This document shows positions 2,913 through 60,431 of a stretch of 64,000 bases of DNA, piece after piece. The first letter of the stretch is position 1. Each line of letters starts with the position of its first letter. The notes beneath the pieces are model-generated. The model did not search any database. It saw nothing but the letters and a program-made list of their open reading frames with translations, and was not told the origin of the DNA. Both the position numbers and the translations under genes were made by a program. Source of the DNA: Antennarius striatus (lineage: Eukaryota; Chordata; Actinopteri; Lophiiformes; Antennariidae); contig NC_090780.1 in NCBI RefSeq assembly GCF_040054535.1, positions 13,523,501 through 13,587,500 on the forward strand, read 5' to 3'.

Positions 2913-5052
2913 CCATCCATCCATCCATCCATCTTCCTCCGCTTATCCGTAGTCGGGTCGCGGGGCAGCAGCTTCAACAGGGAGCCCCAAACTTCCCTTT
3001 CCCCGGCCACATCCACCAGCTCTGACTGGGGGATCCCTAGGCGTTCCCAGGCCAGTGTTGAGATATAATCCTTCCACCTTGTCATGGGTCTGCCCCGAGG
3101 TCTCCTCACAGCTGGACGTGCCAGAAACACCTCCCTAGGGAGGCGTCCCGGAGGCATCCGCACCAGATGCCCAAACCACCTCAACTGACTCCTTTCCATG
3201 CGAAGGAGCAGCGACTCTACTCTGAGCCCCTCGCGAACAGCAGTGTTTCTCACCTTATCTCTAAGGGAGACACCAGCTATCCGCCTGAGAAAGCCCATTT
3301 CAGCTGCTTGTATCCGCGATCTCGTTCTTTCGGTCATGACCCATCGCTCATGACCATAGGTGAGGGTAGGAACAAAGATTGAATGGTAGATGGAGAGCTT
3401 TGCCTCTCAGCTTAGCTCCCTCTTTGTAACAACAGTGCGGTAAAGTGACTGCAATACCGCTCCTGCTGCCCCAATTCTCCGTCCAATCTCACGCTCCATT
3501 GTTCCCTCACTCGTGAACAGGACCCCAAGATACTTAAACTCCTTCACTCGTGGAAGGACCTCATTCCCCACTCGGAGAAGGCAGTCCACCGGTTTCCTGC
3601 TGAGGACCATTGCCTCAGATTTGGAGGTACTAATCCTCATCCCCGCTGCTTCACACCCGGCTACAAACTGGACCAGTGAGTGCTGCAGGTCACAGGCCGA
3701 TGACGCAAACAGGACCACATCATCTGCAAAATGCAGCGATGCAATCCTCAGGCCACCAAACTGTAAAGCCTCCTAACCATGACTACGCCTTGATATCCTG
3801 TCCATGAAAATCACAAACAGAATTGGTGATAAAGCACAGCCCTGGCGAAGGCCAACAGCTACTCGGAACAAGTTCGACTTACTGCCGAGAACCCGAACGC
3901 AGCTCTCACTTTGGGCGTACATTGGATGGCCCTGAGGAGAGGCCATTTTGAACATCGACCATTCAGGTTCAATGCCCCCAGCCTCCACAGGGATGCACGA
4001 GAAGCTCCTTCAGAGGTTTGAATTGAAGGCCTCACGGACAGAGTCCTCCTCCAGACGTTCCGAGTTCACCCGCACTACTCGTTTGGGCTTACCAGGTCTA
4101 TCCAAAGGTTTCCTCCGCCAACGGACCCAATTCACCACCAGGTGGTGATCAGTTAACAGCTCTGCCCCTCTCTTCACCCGAGTGTCCAAAACACACGGTC
4201 GATGGTCAGATGATACGATCACAAGATCAATCATTGACCTCCAACCCAGGGTGCTCTGGTACCAGGTACACTTATGAGCATCCTTGTGTTCGAACATGGT
4301 GTTAGTTATGAACAATCCGTGACTAGCACAGAAGTCCAACAACATAACACCGCTCGGGTTCAGATCAGGGAGGCCATTCTTCCCAATTACGCCCCTCCAA
4401 GTGTCTCCATCATTGCCGACGTGTGCATTTAAGTCCCCCAGGAGAACAATGGAGTCCCCTGCAGGGATCCCTTCAAGGACCCCATTTAGGGACCCCAAGA
4501 AGACCGAATACTCTGAACTGATATTTGGTGCATATGCACAAATAACAGTCACAGTTTCCCCCCCCACAGCCTTAAGGCGTAGGGAATCGACCCTCTCATG
4601 CACCGGGGTAAACTCCAATACAGTGGCGCTCAGCCGGGGGCTTGTGAGTATCCCAACACCCGCCCTGCGCCTCACGCCTGACGCAACTCCGGAGTAAAAC
4701 AAAGTCCAACCCCTATCCAGGAGTTTGGATCCAGAACCGAGGCTATGCGTGGAGGTAAGCCCCACCAGATCCAACTGGTAACACTCCACTTCCAACACAA
4801 GCTCTGGCTCCTTCCCCGCCAGTGAGGTGACATTCCACGTACCCAAAGCCAACTTCTGCCGCCCGGGTCCGATCCGTCGTGATCCCCTGTCGTCACTGCC
4901 ACCCATATGGCAGTGCACCCAACCCCATCGGTCTGCCCTGCGGGTGGCGGGTCCACAGGGGTGGGAAGAATCCACGTTGCCTTTTCGGGCTGAGCTCGGC
5001 CGGGCCCCGTGGCAGACCCAGCCACTAGATGCTTGCTGACGGGACCTCCGTC
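2913..5052 (-). mobile_element. LINE copy B: RTE-like non-LTR retrotransposon, internally deleted
   Basis: Minus strand, 2.1 kb. The 5' part encodes an APE-type endonuclease (4010-4975, 321 codons open) with [37 protein letters not shown] and IVSSDHRP. Then, after a deletion, comes the RT palm segment (VGLRQGCALSPILFVIFMDRIS), a frameshift near 3770, the FADD motif near 3720, and the C-terminal part (FKYLGVLFTSEG; FLRRIAGVSLRDKVRN; RGRPMTRWKDYISTLAWE). The fingers and front of the RT are missing. The 3' end is a (CCAT/TGGA)n tail at 2913-2931. Flanked by a 10-bp target-site duplication. Not capable of autonomous movement. Confidence 0.88.
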
Positions 5053-30000: not shown

Positions 30001-33000
30001 TGCTAATTTTTGTGTGGCTCTGTGGTGCACTGGCGATGCACTCGGAGTGCCCTCCGCCTCTTGCCTGTAAGGCATCTGTGATAGGCTCCAGCAATCCGAC
30101 TTGCAAAAGCGGTAGAAGCGGATCAAATGAATGAATGAATGAATAAATGGATGGATGAACGGATGAATGAATGAATTTTTCTCTTAAGTAACTATTTTCC
30201 AGGACTGTAAATACCTCCAGCAGTAATCATACAGTTGGAAATGGAATAATTAAAATTTAAAAATGAACAGCCGGTGAGTGGAAACCAGACTACAGTGTGC
30301 CCTTGTTCTTTGTGGTGAATGCGTTTCAGGAACCACACGTGATTAAGGTATCTGCGATTGAGCGACGAACTATTTATCTTATTATTTAAGATCATTTAAA
30401 TGTTTATGAACCCTCCCTTCCCATGGGCTCACCACCTGGGAGGGGCCATAGAGCTTGGGTGCATTGTGAGCTGGGTGGTGGCCAAAGGCGGGGACCTTGG
30501 CGATCCGATCCCCGGCTACAGAAGCTGGCTCTTGGGATGTGGAATGTCATCTCTCTGGCAGGAAAGGAGCCCGAGTTGGTGTGTGAGGTTGAGAAGTTCA
30601 GACTAGATATAGTCGTACTCACATCCACACACAGCTTGGGCTCTGGTACCAGTCCTCTCGAGAGGGGTTGGACACTCTGGAGTTGCCCATGGTGAGAGAC
30701 GCCGAGCAGGTGTGGGTATAGTTATGGCCCCCCGGCTTGGCACCTGTACATTGGGGTTCACCCCGGTGGACGAGAGGGTAGCCTCCCTCCGCCTTCGGGT
30801 GGGGGGATGGGTCCTGACTGTTGTTTGTGCTTATGCACCAAACAGCAGTGAAGAGTAACCGCCCTTTTTGGAGTCCTTGGGGGGGGGGTGCTGGAGAGCG
30901 CTCCCAGCAGGGACTCCATCGTTCTGCTGGGGGACTTCAATGCTCATGTGGGCAATGACAGTGAGACCTGGAAGGGCGTGATTGGGAGGAACAGCCCCCC
31001 CGATCAGAACCTGAGTGGTGTTCTGTTATTGGACTTCTGTGCTCGTCACGGACTGTCCATGACGAACACCATGTTCAGACATAAGGGTGTCTATAAGTGC
31101 ACTTGGCACCAGGACACCCTAGGCCGCAGTTCAATGATGGACATTATGGTCATGTCATCAGACTTGCGGCTGCATGTCTTGGACACTCGGGTGAAGAGAG
31201 GGGCGGAGCTGTCGACCGATCACCACCTGGTGGTGTGTTGGCTCCGATGGTGGGGGAAGATGCCGGTCCGACCTGGCAGACCCAAACGTATTGTGAGGGT
31301 CTGCTGGGAACACCTGGCGGAATTCCTAGTCAGAAGGAGTTTCAACTCCCACCTACGGCAGAACTTCACCCACGTCCCGGGGGAGGCGGGGGACATTCAG
31401 TGTGAGTGGACCATGTTCCGCACCTCCATTGTCGAGGCAGCCGACCACAGGTGTGGCCGTAAGGTGGTCGGTGCCTGTCGTGGCGGCAACCCCAGAACCC
31501 GTTGGTGGACATCGGCAGCAAGGGACGCCGTCAAACTGAAGAAGGAGTCCTATCGGGCCTTTTTGGCCTGTGGGACGACTTCCAGATGGCCTCGAGGAAA
31601 TTCTGATCCACCATCAGAAGTCTCAGGAGGGGGAAGCAGTGCAGCATCAACACTGTGTATAGTGGGGATGGGGCGCTGCTGACCTCAACTCGGGACATTG
31701 TGACTCGGTGGAGAGAATAGTTCGAAGACCTCCTCAATTCCGGCGACACGCCTTCCCATGAGGAAGCAGAGTCTGGTTTCTCTGAGACGGGCTCTACTAT
31801 CTCTGGGGTTGAGGATGAGATCCTGCCCCAAGTGGAGGAGTTCAAGTATCTCGGGGTCTCATTCACGAGTGAGGGTACGATGGAACGGGAGATCGACAGG
31901 CAGATCGGTGCAGCATCTGCAGTGATGCATACTCTGTATCGGTCCGTCATGGTGAAGAAGGAACTGAGCCGAAAGGCAAAGCTCTGGATATAGTGGTCGA
32001 TCTACATTCCTGCCCTCACCCATAGTCACGAGCTGTGGGTCGTGACTGAAAGCACGAGATCCCAACCGGCCGAAATGAGTTTCCTCCGCAGGGTGGAACA
32101 TGTAAACAAACATGTAGGCAACAACATAACTTTTTTTTTTTAATCAATTGTGCTTATGTGTGTGTTAAAGTTTGTATGTGTAAATAATTCTCTGAGACTT
32201 TAAAAATAACCCACTCACTGTTGCTAATTAAATGGTGAACAAGCTAAACTGTAGGTTCATATGTATGTAAATCTGATTATGATGAAATCAGTGCTTCACC
32301 AACCATGAATCTCACTGCACGTCACCGGTAGTACTAAAACATATGACACGTCAGTTTTTTGTTACTGCCATCACTGTCCATATTTTTATGAGTTAATGAG
32401 TAGTTTTGCTAATGAGTTCAGTCAAAGAATGAATTAAACTCATATCTTAAGGTATTACTATGGTCAGTGATGCCAACATGCCAACATGTTAGAACATTTT
32501 CAAGTGAATTAAGGAGATAAGGAGACCAGAAATAAAATCCTTATAACATCCTTTAATAACATGTTGGATTCTCCACATCACTAGCATCCCAGATCAACCA
32601 CATCACTAGCATGGCTAGAAAGCATTCACTGAACACCACAGATACAACAACCCGCATACATGCATTGGAATTATGAAGTCTTTTTTCAGTGTATGCAATG
32701 AATATTACAGTATTTAAACCTATAACACCTTTACTTAACTATGACAAAACACCATTTAATTTTTCTTTTCACAGTCTCTTTTAAATTCCCTCTTACTGTC
32801 TCATATTCTGCAGCCATGCCGTTCATCATCTCCATGCTGCTGGCTAGCCTCAACAGCTGCTGTAACCCCTGGATCTACATGTGCTTTGCCGGACATCTGT
32901 TCCAGGATCTTAGGCAGAACTTTCTGTGCTGCTCCACTCGTTACCTCAAATCCTCCAAATGCCGCTGTGAGCGTGACTTTGACTCCAGTCACAAGAGCAT

Positions 33001-43000: not shown

Positions 43001-44108
43001 TAAGGAGGAGCTTAACAGGGCACCTAGAGAGATACAGGTACAACACATGAGCTCATCTCACTGACTTAAAAGAAGGAAGATCCTCCTTTCCACTGTTCTA
43101 AAAAGTTACAGTGGAAACAAAGAGTTACCATCTCTGACTCCTCTATCTTCTGAATTATCTTCACATGTAAAACATCTATTAGTTCATCTGTGAGTCTGCT
43201 TTATGTGGCTTAAACAACAGTCCTACCAGAGCACCAGAGAAGCGAAGCCCTGCCGCCAGCGAGACCGGCACTGCCTGAAGGAGCGAGATGATCTGGAGGT
43301 CCCGCAGCCTGGACGCCTCAAACAGGGTGTGACCCCTCATCAACACTTTACCAAACAGATTTATAAAGACAACAGCATATCTAACGACCCTATGCAGTTT
43401 TAATTGCAACCAATACTTTTTTTTACCACATGTTGTTCTTCTCATCTAAGCATCCACCTGAGGTCAGTATTATGCAGCACTGACTGACTGACATTTATAT
43501 GTGACATATTTAATTACCGCTCCAGAAAGACATTTCTAGATTAAGTTGTAACTAAATTTATCTTTATCTTCATAAATCATTTTCAAAAAACACTCAGTTT
43601 AATAATAAAGACATGTATTATTCTCTGCTTCAGATTACTTTGCATTATGCGTGCACCGTCTGGATCAATGGTGACAGGAGGACTGTTTCTGTATGCAGAG
43701 CATGTACTGTGACTTTGTTTATTCATACCGACTTGTCAAGGTCTCTGTTCCTCCAGACAGAATTGACATACCCCAGTCTGTGGCCTGTGCTGAGTCTTCA
43801 CACTGAAGGTTTATATGTTTCATGCTGATTAAATTCTTTTGACAGTGCACAGCAGTTCCCTTAAAACTCTTGTTGACTCCCTTCGCATTCCTGTTGTTAA
43901 TCAGAGGTTGGGTGTCACTTCAGGTGAAATTTGGGTTTTCAGATCAGACATCGTCTTTCATTTCCATTTTTTCCCCCTGCTGGTCTATCATCTATAATCT
44001 CTGCTCCTCTATTTCCATCAAGTTTAGCTGTGTCTCAGCTTAGTCGGCAAACTGCAGTGATGTCCCAGGAAATTCGGATGAGCAGGGTGCAGAAGGAGAA
44101 TGGCTTAC

Positions 44109-45763: not shown

Positions 45764-49866
<4,103 letters not shown>

Positions 49867-51123
49867 TCACCCCATTGTGTTGTTTTTGGTTGGTTCAGAG
49901 TTACCACACTTAGGCAGAGTATCAGCTGTGCTGCTGGTTCTCTGGATGAACTGGAGGAAGTTATCCTGAAGAGAACCTTCATGGCTGGATGCCCCGAACT
50001 CCGCCGTCTGTGTCAGGCAACATCGGCGAAACTTTATCAGCTCTTCCCTGATCTGCCTGTTCAGCAGCCCGTAGAAGAATGGATTGACGGCAAAGGAGGA
50101 ATAGGCCAACCAGGTGACTGCCTCCTCCAGGTCCCCGGGGCTCTGCATAGATCCAGTCAGAGACATGTGCAGATGGAAAATGAAGAATGGCAACCAACAA
50201 ATCAAGAACTGGCCCACAATGAAGACCAAAGTTAGGGCAGCTTTTCCTCCACTGAAAGCTCTCTCCGGAGATAGTCTCTGGGGCAGAGTGCGAGTCCTGG
50301 CAATCATTGTGGTCTGACTATGAATGGAGTTTGAGCGAGTCTTAGCAGGGCTCTCATTTGACCGTGTGGGAACAGGAGGGAACTGCTGCAAGGCTGCAGA
50401 ACGTGCGACCTTGTACACAGCGCAGTAAACAGCAAAGATAACCACCGCGGGCGCAAAGAAACAGACTACACTGAAGAGCACAGCAAACACACTCCTCAAA
50501 TGACTGTGGCTGGCATGGAGGGAACAGTGAGCTGCAGCAATAGAGCTCTGATGTCCATAAGAAGGCCATCCAAACAGGGTAATCAAAGCTAAAAGGACTG
50601 ACTTAATCCAGATTAGCAGCATGACACTTATCGCGAGGTTGATGGTCATCTTCACCTCATAACGCATGGGGTGTACGATGTAGAAGTAACGCTCCACACT
50701 GATGGCTGTGATGGTGAGAATTGTTAAACATATGAGGAAAACATTGAGGAAGATGTAGACCTGACACTCCAGAACAGTAAATACCACTGTGCCAAAGAAC
50801 GGTGAGCTGGATATGATGCCCAACGGCATGAGCAGGATGGCACACAGCATATCCACCGCACAAAGATGACACACAAAAGCAAACCTTTTCAAGTGAGGAG
50901 CTCGAGCAATGGCTATCATCACAACAGCGTTGGCCAGCAGCGCAATGAGGTTGAGGGTCACCATGCAGAACAACCCAAATAGGTCTTTGATCTGTGATTG
51001 GGAGCTGGTGACGACACCCACATTTGCAGGGACTGTAGGATTGAGCTCCCATAGGTTAGTGGGGGAATTGATCACAGAGTGGTTTGGGACAGAGTTTATC
51101 ATGGGGCCAGTCTTGTCAGCCAT
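49867..51123 (-). CDS. gpr62: GPR61/GPR62-family orphan class A GPCR, probable gpr62 orthologue
   Basis: Intact single-exon coding region of 418 residues. Seven hydrophobic segments are visible. Class A landmarks: N65 in TM1; D91 in TM2; C120 at the top of TM3; ERY (144-146) in place of DRY; a HPMRYEV stretch in ICL2; CWLPFF in TM6; NPFFYGLLNRQIR in TM7/helix 8. One sequon (N14) lies in the N-terminus. The tail segment EGSLQDNFLQFIQRT resembles the GPR61 tail (EGS..ENFLQFLQ), while VTWLAYSSFAVNPFFYGLL resembles GPR62. By residue resemblance alone GPR61 and GPR62 are hard to separate. The neighbour parp3 on the same strand, as at human 3p21.2, points to gpr62. The start has A at -3 and G at +4. 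A possible 5'UTR intron acceptor (pyrimidine run then cag) lies just upstream, with the exon beginning near 51175. These receptors have no confirmed ligand; family members are reported to signal constitutively. Confidence 0.88.
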   Translation of the reverse strand: MADKTGPMINSVPNHSVINSPTNLWELNPTVPANVGVVTSSQSQIKDLFGLFCMVTLNLIALLANAVVMIAIARAPHLKRFAFVCHLCAVDMLCAILLMPLGIISSSPFFGTVVFTVLECQVYIFLNVFLICLTILTITAISVERYFYIVHPMRYEVKMTINLAISVMLLIWIKSVLLALITLFGWPSYGHQSSIAAAHCSLHASHSHLRSVFAVLFSVVCFFAPAVVIFAVYCAVYKVARSAALQQFPPVPTRSNESPAKTRSNSIHSQTTMIARTRTLPQRLSPERAFSGGKAALTLVFIVGQFLICWLPFFIFHLHMSLTGSMQSPGDLEEAVTWLAYSSFAVNPFFYGLLNRQIREELIKFRRCCLTQTAEFGASSHEGSLQDNFLQFIQRTSSTADTLPKCGNSEPTKNNTMG

Positions 51124-53831
51124 TATTCATCCGAGGCTTTCTTCATTTGGATCTCAGACTTCACATGTGGAGGACCTGTTGAGATGAAAAAGTTATTTCT
51201 GAAGATACGGGAAATAAGGCCTCCTGATCCTTCCTGCTCTATATCACACCTTCCTGTGTAATTTTATGAATAGTGTAACATAGAATAATACAGATGCAGT
51301 GTGAGGTTTGATTACTTTATTTACTGTTAATTAATTAAAAAGCATATCAAGTTTCTCTTGAGTTCTGATCTATAACTTGAAACATGGAAACAGTTGCTGA
51401 CACATTTTAAGCATGAACAGGTACGCTTAGAGGTCAATTAAAAACCGTTTACAGTCAAATATAGCACTAACTCACCCTCTTTAAAACATTAATATTGTAT
51501 TGTATTGTAAACTATTGTATCCACACAGTGGTGACAATAAACAATATAAAGCACTGAAAATGTTAATAGTAACAACTATTTAAAAGTTTTTTTTTCCTTA
51601 TTGATCTGTTTAGATGAGTGGCTTTGAAAAATATTCATACCTGACTTTGACCCTGTCTACCTGATAAATGATGAATAATATTAGAAAAATAAAATAAATA
51701 AGGAGTATCTCTACCTTTGTACGTGTGCAACTAAAAATACTTTTATTGCTTTGAAATCAAAATTGCATGCAAATTTTTATATCTAAATAATAAATGAAAA
51801 ACATACAACACCTACCCATGATCCACAGTTTAGTTCGTCCACAACAAGCACACTGATAAAGGTCAGACAGTTTCTTGATGAAAACCTTCAAATATTTCTT
51901 TGGGTCCAAATCAGAGAAAACCCAGATTTTTCATTTACTGCTTCCAAGTAGTAAAAAAAAAAAGAGGTCATCATACATCTCCTAATCCATAGAGTTTCAT
52001 CCAGGTAATTCAGTGTCTGCAGAGCTTCTAACTAACAATGTCACACATGTAAATTTTCTAACAAAGAAGAGCTGGTCACTGATTCCATGACTTTAATTGG
52101 TAAATGATGCTTTCTCTCCCTCCGCAGTCCTGTCCTGTGTGTGGCACTGACTGTCACACATTGTATTGTTTTGGGGGTTTTTTTGCTTTCTAATAAACAC
52201 AAACTCCACTGTTCCACTTGTTGAGCCTTTTGTTCACTGGGTCCTAATGCCCACCAAACTAACTGGAAAACAGATGTTATTTGCATTCAAATTGGAAGGA
52301 ACTACTTCAATGCAATCCAATAAGGAAAGGTTTAACTTTTTCCATCTTAAATATTTAATGAACTGCATTACAATTTGTGCTGTTATATCTACAGCTGAAA
52401 TTGTGTTCTTATACCCCAGCCATTTGTACTGCACAGGAGAGGCTCCTTGTCCTTTCTTAATTAGTGTGGCCCAAAACAATTTCTTAAATTTTTAACATCT
52501 CAAACACCATATGAATACTTTTCCTCAAAAGAAAAATTGTCTCGGTGCATAAGTATAAAATGAAATAGTTTAGATTTCATTTGTCCTAATAAGATTGGTC
52601 GGAGAGCAGATTTATTATTCAAACCCCGAGCAGGGAATAAATATGCATATCAAAGCCATGACTATTTGATGATGTGCATGTCCAGTTGTTGTTTCTCTTT
52701 GACTAAATTATTGATTCCGTTTGTAAACATTCCTCAGGGGTATTCCTCTTTGCATCTGACCCACGCCTGATGAGCAGTGAATAGCCCCCGCAGCCCCTAT
52801 GGAGCAAGCTGAGGTCAACATCAGCACATAGACCAGGAGGACTGGGCTAGAACCAGTGGTAATCAGAATTATTAGAGTACATGCCATAAGAGTTTGATTA
52901 GGTACAATTAAAGTTTTAATCACAAGAAGCCCACCAGAATCCTGACAATGTCATATGTCATCTTAGAATATTTGCAAATCATGAGTACCATCTACACTGT
53001 CGCAATGGAAATCACCTAAAATAGTGAGAATAAAAAAACAGCTTTGATCAAAATTCAAAGGAAAACACTGGTACAAGATAGAGGGGCACTTACTTTATTA
53101 ATTACATGTCCATTCAAGTAATGTTCTAGTGCAAAACGTGCTGGGGCAATTACATTACAGAGGATTTCCCATTACTGCCACCAAGTGGTCACATAGTTGG
53201 TCCTCTGGGTAAATACTGTACCTGTATGTGCCTAGGTACTCGTAAACAGAGATGTTCTTTCTGAGTCTTATTTAAGAGCTCAACAGTGCATTACATTTGT
53301 GGAGGTGGTTGAATAGTAGCCATAAATTGCACTTCATACATCTGCCTTTAAACATGTCTCTAAATAGAATAATATAGCAGCAACGTACAGTAAGTCTAAG
53401 TGGCCAAATGACTGCAAAATTCCTCCTACATATCACTGATTTATGTAGTTGACTTTCTTCATGAGTGACATGCCTAGGGGTACCACTTTGATTAAATGGA
53501 GCAATATGTTAAAAAGTGAGCTAAATAACTGCAATTGAGTTGCCACATAGAAAACAAGGTGCAGCGTGCAGTTGGAAAAATCAAACGGTGCAAATTATCA
53601 AAGGTCTTTGGAAAGTTTACAAAGCAAGATCAAGTATGAAGTGGCACAACTCATTTTAAAATCCGTTTTACTATATGCAAAGAATAAGGCACAGAAGTAT
53701 GAGTCATTTATGCATTATAACAGGAATATCTGCACAATAACAGTAAGACCATATCAATATACGATAACAGCATAGCTTAGCTTCATAGGAACCGCCTTAT
53801 ATAGAGGGAAAGCTTTTCTCCTTTAGGTATA
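51124..53831. other. Between gpr62 and parp3
   Basis: Presumably holds the gpr62 5'UTR and promoter (possible untranslated-exon acceptor near 51176) and the parp3 3'UTR. About 52740-52860 has a SINE-like scrap (gagcagtgaatagcccccgc). No other gene seen. Confidence 0.45.
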
Positions 53832-56800
53832 TTAGTTCATGTGCAGCTCCAGCAGGTAGCGAAGGCGACACTGGCTCTCTTTGTAGATCAGATATTCACT
53901 GTTGCAGAAGTGGCTACCTGAAAACTGTGGCTGACTTATAGGCTTACCCTGAGGCACAGCAATTTTCTTGCCCTCCAAGGTGATGAAAGTGTCCTGGGAC
54001 GGATCTGGAAATGCAGGTGATAAAAACACGACACAAGATATCAGTTAACACAGTCGTTCTTAAATTCTTTCATTTTGATTGGTATTGAAGAGTCATACAA
54101 TGAGCTGATTATATTTTTATTGAAATAGCACTACCTTAAACATGCATGCTTTATGTTACTTTTAAACACTGATGTTTTTTTTGCAGAAATACTTTTACTG
54201 TGTGCTAACAGTACCGTACCTGGTTCCACTGAACCTCGCGCCACCACGCTATCAAAGCCCGGGGGAGCAGATTTCAAGGAACTGTTGTCTTTGGTGATGG
54301 TCTTCTCTTGGCCAAGGGCCACCTCACAAAGGAACATTACTCCAGTGTTTTTGGAAGTGCGCACTAAAAAATTCATGGTGCACCAGATGTGATAGGTTAC
54401 CAATGACATGTCCTTTGTATCTTGTTCACTCTTAGTTTCTTCATATAGCCTTACCATAACATGCAGACTTGCTGTTTTCAGACGCAAAATATATGCCGCG
54501 ACCAACACGCCCCCCTGAATGGGGCATTATCCTCAGACCACTCTTCAGGATGGCTGCAACCACTGCTATGTTTGTACCATGCCACAGCAGACGGCGGTTC
54601 TCCAGCTTGTCATTTTCATTGAACCGTGTTCCCTGTTATGTGCAACGTATGTGTTAGGTTACACGACTTCTGATTTTTTTTATGTCACATGAAAACAACA
54701 CTGCCATTCCCACCTCTGTATCTCGATCAACTTCCCAAACATTGACAATTTTTGGTTTACGATATCCATCTGAAGTCGCTTTCAGGTATTTTTCAATGAT
54801 CTTGAACAGAAAAACCAGTTAAACACCTTCATTATAAGGACAATATGAATGAAAGATTTGTGATCAATCACGACAAATGGTCTGTGCCTATTGAATGTTA
54901 TTGTACCTTAAATATTTCTGAATTTGTGTCCATTAGGCTGAGCCTGCAATGGAGAGAATTATAGTCTTGGTCCAGCGGGTGGGGAACTGTCTCGACCATC
55001 TCTTGAGCCTTTTCAGTTTCTGACTTTAGAGTTTGGGCGAGCTCAATGTCAGCCAGCACCTAAAGAAAGCATGGAGTAACGAGAGTAACTCTAAAAAGCA
55101 GGAAACATATAAGGAGAGTTCATTGCAGTATAAAGCATTCAAAACCTCACCATGAGCATCTCTTTCTTCTGCTCCACAACCTCCTTGTTGTCGATAGCTG
55201 GGGGTCTGTTGCGGCCAAAGTTATGTGGAATGACAGTGAAGAACTTTGAGGAAAGTTCTTCTAAACGTGCCTTTCCCCTTTTTTGGTTCATGGCAGCCTC
55301 AATCTCCTCCAACACCTCAAATCCCTTAGCAATCTGTATCTTACTGAGTTTCCCCAAAGGCATCTTCTTGATGTCTGTAAGACACACATTCATACACCAA
55401 AAAACAATATTTTAACCATCCAGAGTAGATATTGTATTTTTTGCCAAGAAAAGGAATGTCATACATTATACATTGCCAGGTTTTACGAACTGTTCTGTAC
55501 GTAATCCCAAAGAACTAAGAAAAACAATCCGATATCTTCAAACAGCTAAAATTAAAGAATGTGTTTTTTAAATGCATCTTCATTATAAAAAACAAACAAA
55601 GAAAAACAGAGACTTCAGAACTGAATCCTTCTTAGAGACGCACACACTTTAGTGAAACAGATATGCTACTGAACCGGTATCTGTGTACACTGAAGTTGCA
55701 TAAACTGGTTTGTATTTAGACTGAGACACAATAGACACACCTAGGTTCATGCATTCCATCGCTTCTTTGAACATATCATTGCTGAAAATGAGCTCAATGA
55801 GTTTCTTCATAGCTGTATCGAGTGTGCAGGACAGGACGTTTTTGGTGACTTTGACAGACTTTCCATCGACACTGTCCACCTGTAAATACAGCCAAAGAGA
55901 TTCTGCTGAGAATTATCCAAAAATGTCCAACGAGTTACTCCAGTTCCTCATCAGGCTTTGTTCTTATGAGATGAGCACTGACGTTTACCTTGACCTCGGC
56001 ATTCTCGTCTCCATCCACCTCAATCAGGGTGTACTTTCCAGGGTGAGATACAAAATTCAACCGATCACTCCAGTTGTTCTTTGTCTTGTCCTTAAACTTT
56101 TTCTCAAAGTCCTTGATAGCATTCTCCACGTTATTAAACTCGCTAAGTTTGTTTTGTCCCACTTCCCCCTGAATTCAGATTAGACATGAGGCAGTCAGTA
56201 ACAATTGCGCAATATGAGTGGTATGGACTGTGGAAGGTCAACATATTATCACCATACTGAGGAAGACCTCCACTTATGTTGATCATATAACTGATGAAGG
56301 TAGTCAGTTCATGAGTCACAAAAAACAGCTGATTCTGAAGATGATTGTTTGCATAAATGCTCTGATACATTCTATGGCAAAGATTATATGCAAATTTAAA
56401 AAGTATTTGCAGGTATTAAAAATCCTACATAAATAAGCAAGAGCAGAATAACAGGTATGTAACTCAGGTTAAACTTACCACTCTGCCCCATCTGTTCCAG
56501 GAATAATAACTGGAGCCAGATTTGATAACTTGGACAACATAAAACTTATTATTATTATTATTGTTTCCAATGTTTGTTTGGTTGAGCATGCAGTCATAGT
56601 CCTCATGCACCTGGTGGAGGAAACAGAACAATTTTCAACATTTCTTTTAAATGTTACTGCACAAAATCTAATTTTACGTGAAAGGATTCCTGTAAAGCAC
56701 CTGAAGGCACCTGGCTGACGTCATACAGCATCTTTCTTACCTCTCCATTGCTTGACAGTGGGCAGTGCTCATCCACCTTCTTCTTTCCTTTCACCTGTGG

Positions 56801-56920
56801 CCCTGCAGCCAGGAGGGCCTCTTTCGCAGAGGTAAAAGCATTCTTGGGCTTTGGTGTCTCCTCTTTTGCCTTCTTGCCACCTGCCTTTGTACCAGAAGCT
56901 GCTCTTCTCTTAGGGGCCAT
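53832..56920 (-). CDS. parp3: Poly/mono(ADP-ribose) polymerase 3, ten coding exons
   Basis: Nuclear DNA-break-activated ADP-ribosyltransferase. Exons, 5' to 3': 56741-56920, 56479-56610, 55989-56168, 55741-55879, 55151-55374, 54907-55059, 54714-54800, 54455-54632, 54220-54363, 53832-54004. All have GT-AG borders; total 1,590 nt = 529 residues plus stop (human about 533). Domains: Lys-rich N-terminus (1-50) starting MAPKRRA; WGR domain about 60-165 with NRWGRVGEVGQ; helical regulatory domain about 170-300 with KKMPLGKLSK; ART catalytic domain about 305-529. The H-Y-E triad is complete: H383 (LWHGTN), Y413 (GRGIYF) and E509 (NSEYLIY). Codons upstream of MAPKRRA stay open for 49 residues, but the family start is the MAPK Met. 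A copy of exons 3-5 lies upstream at 58163-59216. Whether the enzyme is active is inferred from the intact triad. Confidence 0.95.
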
Positions 56921-57299
56921 TGTGCGGACTGAAGACCCTGCACACAAACTTACCGTATTCATCATCTGGACTCTGTGACGGGACAAGCCCAGACACGACC
57001 ACGATGATAAGCTATCGAGCATCAACCCAAATGAAGCCGTCGACATGTACTTACCGAGTAATAACACATCAGTTAGTGTTAGCGGCTACAAAGACTAGAA
57101 AGTCACCATTACGGCTGAGTTGTTTGGAGATGAACAGGGTCAGTGGACGCTTCACCCAACCTGCTTTATTGATCACAGGACCTGAATTCCCCTCAGCTGT
57201 TAACTCACCTCTTAACTTTGACTCGTTCCGTCGGGGTGGGAAAGCGGTAACAAAGCCAGAGATTCCCCTTGGCAACGTCGATACCCCTGCAGCCAACTG

Positions 57300-57560
57300 A
57301 GGTGACTGACAGTGATTATCGTGAAGTTTACGTTCACTTTCTGGTCACCGGAAGAGGCGGAGCTTCACTGTAGCCGCTGTGGAGGTGGAGTACATTCACA
57401 CGCAAATTTTTCTCTCCTGATATGATGAAGGTAAGACCCGCCTTACAATACCTGTGATTGGCTAGTGTTGTTGTTGAGTTGGGGTAACGATTGGTTAAAT
57501 GTGAGTGACAATATAATTTTAAGCTAATCAGAGGCTGAGGAAGGCGGGTTATGGCGCCTT
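57300..57560 (-). promoter_or_regulatory. Probable TATA-less promoter region 5' of parp3
   Basis: The block upstream of parp3 is richer in GC than its surroundings. It contains an ETS-type CCGGAAG (57348-57354), an adjoining GAGGCGG GC-box-like site, and two ATTGG (reverse CCAAT) boxes at 57457-57461 and 57490-57494. No TATA box was seen. On the + strand a start-like ATGATGAAG runs into a consensus donor gtaaga (about 57422-57435), which would fit a divergent first exon. Assignment is by motif only. Confidence 0.45.
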
Positions 57561-58082
57561 CATAGTAGGATTAGCACCGTACGTTCGTCCTGCAAATTAA
57601 TGGCTATACGTGACCTGATATAACCTGAAGAGTCAGAGTTCTACTAAAGGGTGTTGATATCCCCTGTCGAACCCGTAGCTTTACGATAAAGGATATCCGG
57701 CACTTATGTTAATTTAAATAATTCATTTTGGAATAGGAAAAATAAGATATAAAAATACTTAAGTAGAAGGGCACGCAATTGTGAAGACCGAGGCTCAACA
57801 GTCCCTTTAATTCAATAAAAAAAAAACATTATTACAGGAAATAATTTTATTTATTTTCATACCTAAATGTACACATTCATAGCATATTTTTATTTATATT
57901 AACACTAAACTGTATTAGATTTATCCATCAGGGTCCTTATATCATTTCCTGAGAGATTAACTAAAATACTAAAATAAAAAACCAGGAACATCTAGGTGAA
58001 TGAAAGAATTTAACAAAGTAAACTATTGATAATCAAAGCCTGTTGTCCTACCTCTAACACAGCAGCATCAAGGCAAAGATTA

Positions 58083-58151
58083 TTTAAAATACATTTATTA
58101 CTGAATAAGATTTTTTTACTTTGATATACCCTAATTAATACATTACTTTTA
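58083..58151. repeat. 69-bp direct repeat, left flank of the parp3 duplicate
   Basis: Identical to 59219-59287 except for one T/C difference. An 11-base filler (58152-58162) separates it from the duplicated parp3 block. The pair looks like an unusually long target-site duplication. Confidence 0.93.
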
Positions 58152-58162
58152 CCAAACAGGGT

Positions 58163-59216
58163 AATCTCCTCCAACACCTCAAATCCCTTAGCAATCTGTA
58201 TCTTACTGAGTTTCCCCAAAGGCATCTTCTTGATGTCTGTAAGACACACATTCATACACCAAAAAACAATATTTTAACCATCCAGAGTAGATATTGTATT
58301 TTTTGCCAAGAAAAGGAATGTCATACATTATACATTGCCAGGTTTTACGAACTGTTCTGTACGTACTCCCAAAGAACTAAGAAAAACAATCCGATATCTT
58401 CAAACAGCTAAAATTAAAGAATGTGTTTTTTAAATGCATCTTCATTATAAAAAACAAACAAAGAAAAACAGAGACTTCAGAACTGAATCCTTCTTAGAGA
58501 CGCACACACTTTAGTGAAACAGATATGCTACTGAACCGGTATCTGTGTACTCTGAAGTTGCATAAACTGGTTTATATTTAGACTGAGACACAACACACAC
58601 ACCTAGGTTCATGCATTCCATCGCTTCTTTGAACATATCATTGCTGAAAATGAGCTCAATGAGTTTCTTCATAGCTGTATCGAGTGTGCAGGACAGGACG
58701 TTTTTGGTGACTTTGACAGACTTTCCATCGACACTGTCCACCTGTAAATACAGCCAAAGAGATTCTGCTGAGAATTATCCAAAAATGTCCAACGAGTTAC
58801 TCCAGTTCCTCATCAGGCTTTGTTCTTATGAGATGAGCACTGACGTTTACCTTGACCTCGGCATTCTCGTCTCCATCCACCTCAATCAGGGTGTACTTTC
58901 CAGGGTGAGATACAAAATTCAACCGATCACTCCAGTTGTTCTTTGTCTTGTCCTTAAACTTTTTCTCAAAGTCCTTGATAGCATTCTCCACGTTATTAAA
59001 CTCGCTAAGTTTGTTTTGTCCCACTTCCCCCTGAATTCAGATTAGACATGAGGCAGTCAGTAACAATTGCGCAATATGAGTGGTATGGACTGTGGAAGGT
59101 CAAGATATTATCACCATACTGAGGAAGACCTCCACTTATGTTGATCATATAACTGATGAAGGTAGTCAGTTCATGAGTCACAAAAAACAGCTGATTCTGA
59201 AGATGATTGTTTGCAT
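58163..59216 (-). pseudogene. Partial duplicate of parp3 (exons 3, 4 and part of 5)
   Basis: This 1,054-bp block is collinear with 55301-56354 at a constant offset of 2,862 bases, with no indels. I count six substitutions (99.4 % identity), all in intron sequence. It carries a complete exon 3 (58851-59030), a complete exon 4 (58603-58741) with splice sites, and the first 74 bases of exon 5 (58163-58236). It lacks exons 1-2, the rest of exon 5 and the whole catalytic domain, so it cannot encode PARP3 alone. It lies 1.2 kb 5' of parp3 in the same orientation. Direct repeats of 69 bp flank it (58083-58151 and 59219-59287). The source is the copy inside the intact gene; this one is the insert. 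Confidence 0.95.
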
Positions 59217-59218
59217 TG

Positions 59219-59287
59219 TTTAAAATACATTTATTACTGAACAAGATTTTTTTACTTTGATATACCCTAATTAATACATTACTTTTA
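59219..59287. repeat. 69-bp direct repeat, right flank of the parp3 duplicate
   Basis: Partner of 58083-58151, separated by two bases from the right end of the parp3-derived insert. After it the two flanks diverge at once. Confidence 0.93.
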
Positions 59288-59963: not shown

Positions 59964-60277
59964 TGACTCCTCCGAGAGCTGCCACCTTATCGTGGTGGGG
60001 GAGTTTGAGTGCCCAGGAGCTATGTTGTCAGGGACTTTATGCTCCTGCTAGGGTCTCCCTTGGCAAACAGGTCCTGGGTGACGGGCCAAAGAGCAGTGCA
60101 AAAACCACTGTGGCAAGAAAAACATCAAGGACTGTGACTTCGCCCGGTATGGCGCAACCGGGGCCCCACCCTGGAGCCAGGCCCGGGGTTTTTTTTCTCC
60201 TGGTGTTTGTCCAGTATTTATTCATCATGTAATGCCTGAGCAGTGGATATGTGGAATTTCCTGCGGGATTAATAAAG
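59964..60277 (+). mobile_element. Short retroelement: LINE 5'UTR joined to a different LINE 3' end
   Basis: 59967-60185 matches the 5'UTR found at 2692-2835 (gagagctgccacctta, gagctatgttgtcaggg, gggtctcccttggca) and continues past it (cgcccggtatggcgcaa). From 60190 it switches to ttctcctggtgtttgtccag, the 3' end seen at 45725, then cgggattaataaagtatcta and a TATC tail. There is no coding sequence. It resembles a SINE-like deletion or template-switch product. Confidence 0.7.

Positions 60278-60431
<154 letters not shown>

Follow-up and report, generated by a model that had tools for sequence, protein, structure and literature searches.

A recent insertion of parp3 sequence in Antennarius striatus, probably formed by serial template switching

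How did a fragment of parp3, introns included, come to lie a short way upstream of the gene from which it was copied, between two copies of a long direct repeat? The question was addressed in a window of 64,000 nucleotides, the whole stretch of DNA analysed, which corresponds to positions 13523501-13587500 of contig C5 (26.65 Mb) in an assembly of 548 Mb and 42 contigs. The first-pass annotation, made from the sequence alone, had read the locus as a patch of parp3 captured at a staggered double-strand break. The features concerned are the following, in window positions.

49867-51126, minus strand: open frame of a single-exon, rhodopsin-type GPCR, 419 codons from stop to stop (Pfam 7tm_1)
50570-50584, plus strand: source of the junction insert, an exact 15-mer match inside the GPCR gene (gene on the minus strand)
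55301-56354, minus strand: source of the main insert, in parp3 (exon 3, 55989-56168; exon 4, 55741-55879; exon 5 from 55374 downwards)
56376-56387, plus strand: 12-mer GGCAAAGATTAT, 21 bp past the source end, recurring at 58072-58083 near the re-entry point
58079-58151, plus strand: left flanking direct repeat (one mismatch over the 69 bp from 58083, two over the 73 bp from 58079)
58152-58162, plus strand: junction insert of 11 bases, templated from 50570-50580 (15-mer match)
58163-59216, plus strand (gene sense on the minus strand): copy of parp3, 1,054 bp (alignment)
59217-59218, plus strand: either two filler bases (TG) or, following a 2-bp microhomology (AT), target ATTA with one mismatch (ATTG; alignment)
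59219-59287, plus strand: right copy of the 69-bp repeat (alignment and genome search)

The insert and its source in parp3

The gene on the minus strand has WGR, PARP regulatory and PARP catalytic domains (Pfam) and was identified as parp3. The closest solved structure to its exon-3 frame is that of PARP3 (2eoc, E 3.5e-20), compared with 3.1e-10 for PARP2; the exon-4 frame alone had no match among the solved structures, and the identity of the gene therefore rests on the other frames. Counting exons from the one with the start codon (56920), exon 2 is found at 56479-56610 and exons 3 to 5 at the positions listed above. The GPCR frame lies downstream of parp3 on the same strand. GPR62 neighbours PARP3 in mammals, and the frame is labelled here gpr62-like by synteny. 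On the right side of the insertion site, eight open frames between 59526 and 63699 had no Pfam match above a curated cut-off.

Alignment of the two blocks bore out the first-pass description of the insert, 58163-59216 being an ungapped copy of parp3 55301-56354 with six substitutions and no indels in 1,054 bp. The donor segment is still in place, as in a templated insertion. A plain tandem duplication, in which the copies are directly adjacent, was rejected, as 1,808 bp separate source and copy. The copy contains 74 bp of exon 5, intron 4, exon 4, intron 3, exon 3 and part of intron 2. Exon 3 (180 bp) and exon 4 (139 bp) are intact with complete splice sites, as had been annotated, exon 5 is cut after 74 bp, and the three exonic pieces share one open frame of 393 bases. 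A processed pseudogene was rejected, introns 3 and 4 being complete in the copy, and the retained introns and few differences agree with the earlier view of a recent, DNA-like copy and not a processed retrocopy.

All six substitutions fall in introns when placed on the parp3 exon map, again as annotated. With 661 of the 1,054 bp intronic, this has a chance probability of P = 0.061; the pattern is weak evidence of anything, and neither purifying selection nor gene conversion is claimed from it. Three of the six lie within 23 bp (55712, 55732 and 55734 in the source; 58574, 58594 and 58596 in the copy), and two of these convert AATAGACACAC to a perfect CA run in the copy. The cluster is perhaps one multinucleotide event or a microsatellite change.

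In a genome search which ignores very common words and scores the best candidates (two of two scored for each query), the 1,205-bp block matched itself and its source alone, and the 69-mer its two copies alone. This search of the 548-Mb assembly and its 42 contigs revealed no additional copy of the parp3 segment, either processed or unprocessed. Among non-overlapping pairs in 344 kb of contiguous sequence, including 5,000 bases of N and with overlapping tandem-array pairs dropped, insert and source alone reach a length of 300 bp with an identity of 95 % or higher, the next pair being 270 bp long, and their similarity is far beyond chance. Since the 69-mer was matched nowhere else, the repeat does not resemble the terminus of a dispersed element. 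A mobile element with 69-bp terminal repeats was rejected for the same result, neither repeat nor block having matches elsewhere in the genome search, and a DNA transposon or LTR-like element carrying a gene fragment was rejected on finding no terminal inverted repeats and no dispersed repeats. None of the four inverted pairs found (at least 12 nt) joins the two ends of the insert.

That the duplicate is an assembly artefact or a false haplotype duplication appears extremely improbable. The divergence between the blocks, 0.57 %, does lie within the range of heterozygosity of many fishes. Against this, the block ends in mid-exon and mid-intron, with joints that carry templated filler and a re-copied 69-mer, and the window, without a single N, is part of a contig of 26.65 Mb; no alternative haplotype was found on another contig in the genome search with the 1,205-bp block.

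The flanking repeat and the two joints

The direct repeats at 58083-58151 and 59219-59287 are 69 bp long and differ by one mismatch (T/C) in an ungapped alignment with an offset of 1,136, which agrees with the earlier annotation. The repeat can be extended leftward to 58079 (ATTA/ATTG), giving 73 bp with two mismatches, an AT microhomology and zero filler. At the right joint the source reads TTTGCAT/AAATG, the slash marking the end of the copied part, and the copy reads TTTGCATTGTTTAAAATAC; the alternative reading is an AT microhomology into target ATTATTTAAAA with one mismatch (ATTG). At the left joint, the 11-base filler (58152-58162) together with the first four bases of the copy (AATC) forms the 15-mer CCAAACAGGGTAATC (58152-58166), which recurs on the same strand 7.6 kb away, at 50570-50584 inside the gpr62-like GPCR gene. 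Fillers of 11 and 2 bases had been annotated at the joints; these lengths were right, but the 11 bases are templated and the 2 bases are readable as target. The four bases AATC constitute a microhomology between donor one (CCAAACAGGGT-AATC-AAAG) and donor two (CCTC-AATC-TCCTCC).

A genome-wide exact pattern search found the 15-mer in exactly two places in the 548-Mb assembly, and its backwards control pattern in three. Arithmetic from the control count gives about 5e-5 as the probability that the 15-mer would by chance recur on the same strand less than 10 kb away. When 20,000 fillers were simulated with a Markov model, seven had an equally full match in the 64-kb window, and a lenient rule raised the number to 88; as the 15-mer had been noticed by scanning the window, the lenient figure (88/20,000, 0.4 %) is the fairer, cautious one. 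On the exact match, the simulation and the genome-wide pattern search, a non-templated filler was rejected. Two other candidates, an origin of part of the filler in the right flank (ACCAAAC aligned with AACTAAAC at the cost of a gap and a mismatch) and a 12-mer across the joint of repeat and filler that recurs at 43347, were judged weaker than the exact 15-mer.

Near the right joint, the two copies of the 12-mer GGCAAAGATTAT are offset from the exact breakpoints. A 12-bp match was equalled in 25 of 19,875 random pairs of 100-bp sequences, in 54 of 19,863 AT-rich pairs and in 34 of 39,747 random 70-bp pairs, and of the four breakpoint pairs compared, the other three share just 6-7 bases. The 12-mer is possibly an aid to the jump at re-entry, for which it is suggestive only.

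The 69-bp repeat ends at a TTTT/A boundary, the type of site cut by LINE endonuclease, which was also found at 326 of 63,800 random window boundaries and 270 of 30,746 AT-rich ones (0.5-0.9 %). This boundary suits an RNA-templated origin, in which a nascent read-through pre-mRNA from parp3 into the GPCR gene would have been reverse transcribed into the site, and so do the donors, both of which are in minus-strand genes, the insert corresponding to antisense cDNA in the right order. Poly(A) or poly(T) is missing and the introns are retained, however, a random retro-insertion is not expected to land 2-3 kb from its source, and a repeat of 69 bp is long for target-primed insertion, so that we regard this origin as very improbable. 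An equally remote variant is copying in cis from the nascent parp3/GPCR read-through RNA at the TTTT/A nick, which would be a case of natural germline RNA-templated repair beside a transcribed gene; order, orientation and target site agree with it, the absence of poly(A) does not. The templated sequence insertion polymorphisms (TSIPs), as presented in the available portion of PMC5110952, comprise a class 1 with target duplication and TTTT/A and a class 2 with repair-type joints and without target duplications. The present insertion resembles class 1 in its target duplication and TTTT/A and class 2 in its joints, but it differs from class 1 in having no poly(A), from class 2 in the presence of a target duplication, and from both in its donor not being distant. 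With no poly-T after the TTTT/A boundary and a 69-bp duplication present, neither class 1, or LINE-mediated insertion, nor class 2 was accepted.

Origin of the rearrangement

The product reads, all on the plus strand, target to 58151, 50570-50584, 55301-56354, and target from 58079 or 58083. The copied pieces (50570-50584, 55301-56354 and 58083-58151) are thus in ascending order and one orientation, within one stretch of 7.6 kb. We consider the probable origin to be serial microhomology-mediated template switching during repair or replication, of the MMBIR/FoSTeS or polymerase-theta type, yielding a structure of the kind called a 'cycle of templated insertions' or DUP-NML-DUP. DNA synthesis would have left the target after 58151 and jumped back to 50570, where about 15 bases of the neighbouring GPCR gene would have been copied. 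It would then have slipped forward on the 4-base match AATC to 55301 in parp3. Once 1,054 bases of genomic DNA had been copied there, a 2-base match would have brought synthesis back to the target at about 58079-58083, and 69-73 bases would have been copied a second time. Comparison of the joints revealed no microhomology at the first jump, from 58151 to 50570; the joints carry the 4-bp AATC, the 2-bp AT and the templated 11-mer, as in microhomology-mediated and templated insertion. We infer a single event, the direction of synthesis and the enzyme.

Serial template switching would explain jointly the proximity of the donors, their orientation and order, the microhomology and the filler. If synthesis jumps back and rejoins the target 69 bases upstream of its exit, 69-bp repeats are expected without a staggered cut, and the host segment duplicated at the return is here the 69-bp repeat, as in a cycle or DUP-NML-DUP. 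An origin related to repair, at a break as proposed in the first-pass annotation or in replication, is supported. Its statement that a tandem duplication cannot give flanking repeats fails, as a partly retained second copy or a returning polymerase gives exactly this structure; the product could formally be described as a tandem duplication of 50570-58151 (7.6 kb) whose second copy keeps three parts. Judged as sequence, the observed pieces, with their order, orientation, rarity and microhomologies, would be compatible with either one event or two, and with either re-replication or the fill-in of a 69-base overhang.

The origin suggested at first, a staggered double-strand break whose overhangs of about 69 nt were filled in on both sides around a captured patch of locally copied parp3, appears doubtful. 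It yields the 69-bp flanking repeats directly, and the repair of breaks with protruding ends into small duplications is documented in the accessible parts of PMC8355091 and PMC5730883. Patch-mediated break repair with duplications was also proposed in rice (Vaughn and Bennetzen 2014, in the summary given by a review), with insertions of 10-1000 bp, the non-tandem ones being derived from sequence no more than 200 bp from the break and the short ones from ectopic donors. The rice insertions are similar in their duplicated flank and local donors, but the donors here are 1.7 and 7.6 kb away. A captured patch by itself predicts neither a donor in the same orientation less than 3 kb away nor a collinear second donor of 15 bp, and explains the flanking repeats only; the 69-base overhang is compatible with the repeats but unnecessary, and the collinear filler donor on the same strand at 7.6 kb was left unpredicted.

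Two successive steps, a 2.85-kb tandem duplication (55301-58151) with templated filler at the joint and a later 1,728-bp deletion (56355-58082) in the second copy, would fit the coordinates exactly, and ordinary events would account for orientation, proximity and flanking repeats. According to the available portions of PMC7368036 and PMC8654963, C. elegans repair mutants (brc-1/brd-1, helq-1) accumulate tandem duplications and templated insertions in their germline. This sequence of events explains everything at the cost of an added event; two events are required in a short time (0.57 % divergence), and the intermediate was not found in the genome search of this single assembly. We regard it as unlikely. 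All these models share the same empty site, and a single 69-bp site in outgroups would therefore not separate them.

Serial template switching has parallels in other systems. In the PCAWG scheme, as far as covered by the available text of PMC7025897, strings of templated insertions that return to re-replicate a host segment are termed 'cycles', and most templated-insertion events have two junctions only. The likeness is in the inserted templated segment and in the return which re-replicates the host segment; the PCAWG cycles are from tumours, with donors typically on other chromosomes, whereas here the rearrangement is inherited, the donors are less than 8 kb away and the re-copied segment is just 69-73 bp. 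DUP-NML-DUP rearrangements in human genomic disorders, in the accessible account of PMC6902434, consist of a normal interval with a direct duplication on either side, and show microhomology. The insertion shares with them the two same-direction duplications, the unduplicated interval between these and short homology at many joints, but is of kilobase and not array-detectable scale, and has a third piece of 15 bp at one joint. In the germline of C. elegans repair mutants, polymerase theta produces patchwork insertions and tandem duplications, in the excerpts available from PMC8654963 and PMC7368036. The present rearrangement is taken to be inherited through the germline because it is present in the reference assembly. 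On the favoured reading it is a young, clean germline example of an already known kind of rearrangement, local template switching in an animal, with a scar so well preserved and recent that the order of jumps can be read from the sequence, and it cautions that flanking repeats are not always target-site duplications from a staggered cut. A limited literature search, too narrow for the locus to be called unpublished, found nothing on partial duplication of parp3 in fish.

Age, possible effect and neighbouring repeats

Seven differences in 1,123 aligned bases (six in 1,054 and one in 69) correspond to a divergence of 0.62 %, or about 0.3 % per copy. Germline mutation rates in fish are a few 1e-9 per site per generation. 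Together these give the insertion an age of roughly half a million to one million generations, an estimate that would be biased by gene conversion or by an allelic difference at the origin.

The copied exons have the same orientation as parp3 and lie 1.2 to 2.1 kb upstream of its start codon; their use by an upstream transcript (exonisation) is possible. That the donor is a PARP gene is, as the first-pass annotation stated, probably a coincidence; under a local mechanism the donor would simply be the neighbouring gene.

Several other repeats were observed in the window. A direct pair, 59967-60104 and 2686-2837, is 84 % identical and probably a dispersed repeat; its former member is just to the right of the insertion site. 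An array of short tandem units at 60278-60431 resembles another at 45766-45988, and its last 142 bp (60290-60431) recur with 100 % identity about 37.6 kb further along the contig. Directly to the right of the window are exactly 5,000 N (64001-69000 relative to the window, on the same contig), which are either an assembly gap or withheld sequence. An inverted pair of about 765 bp with 75 % identity, 4110-4874 and 30502-31258, is probably an old transposable element.
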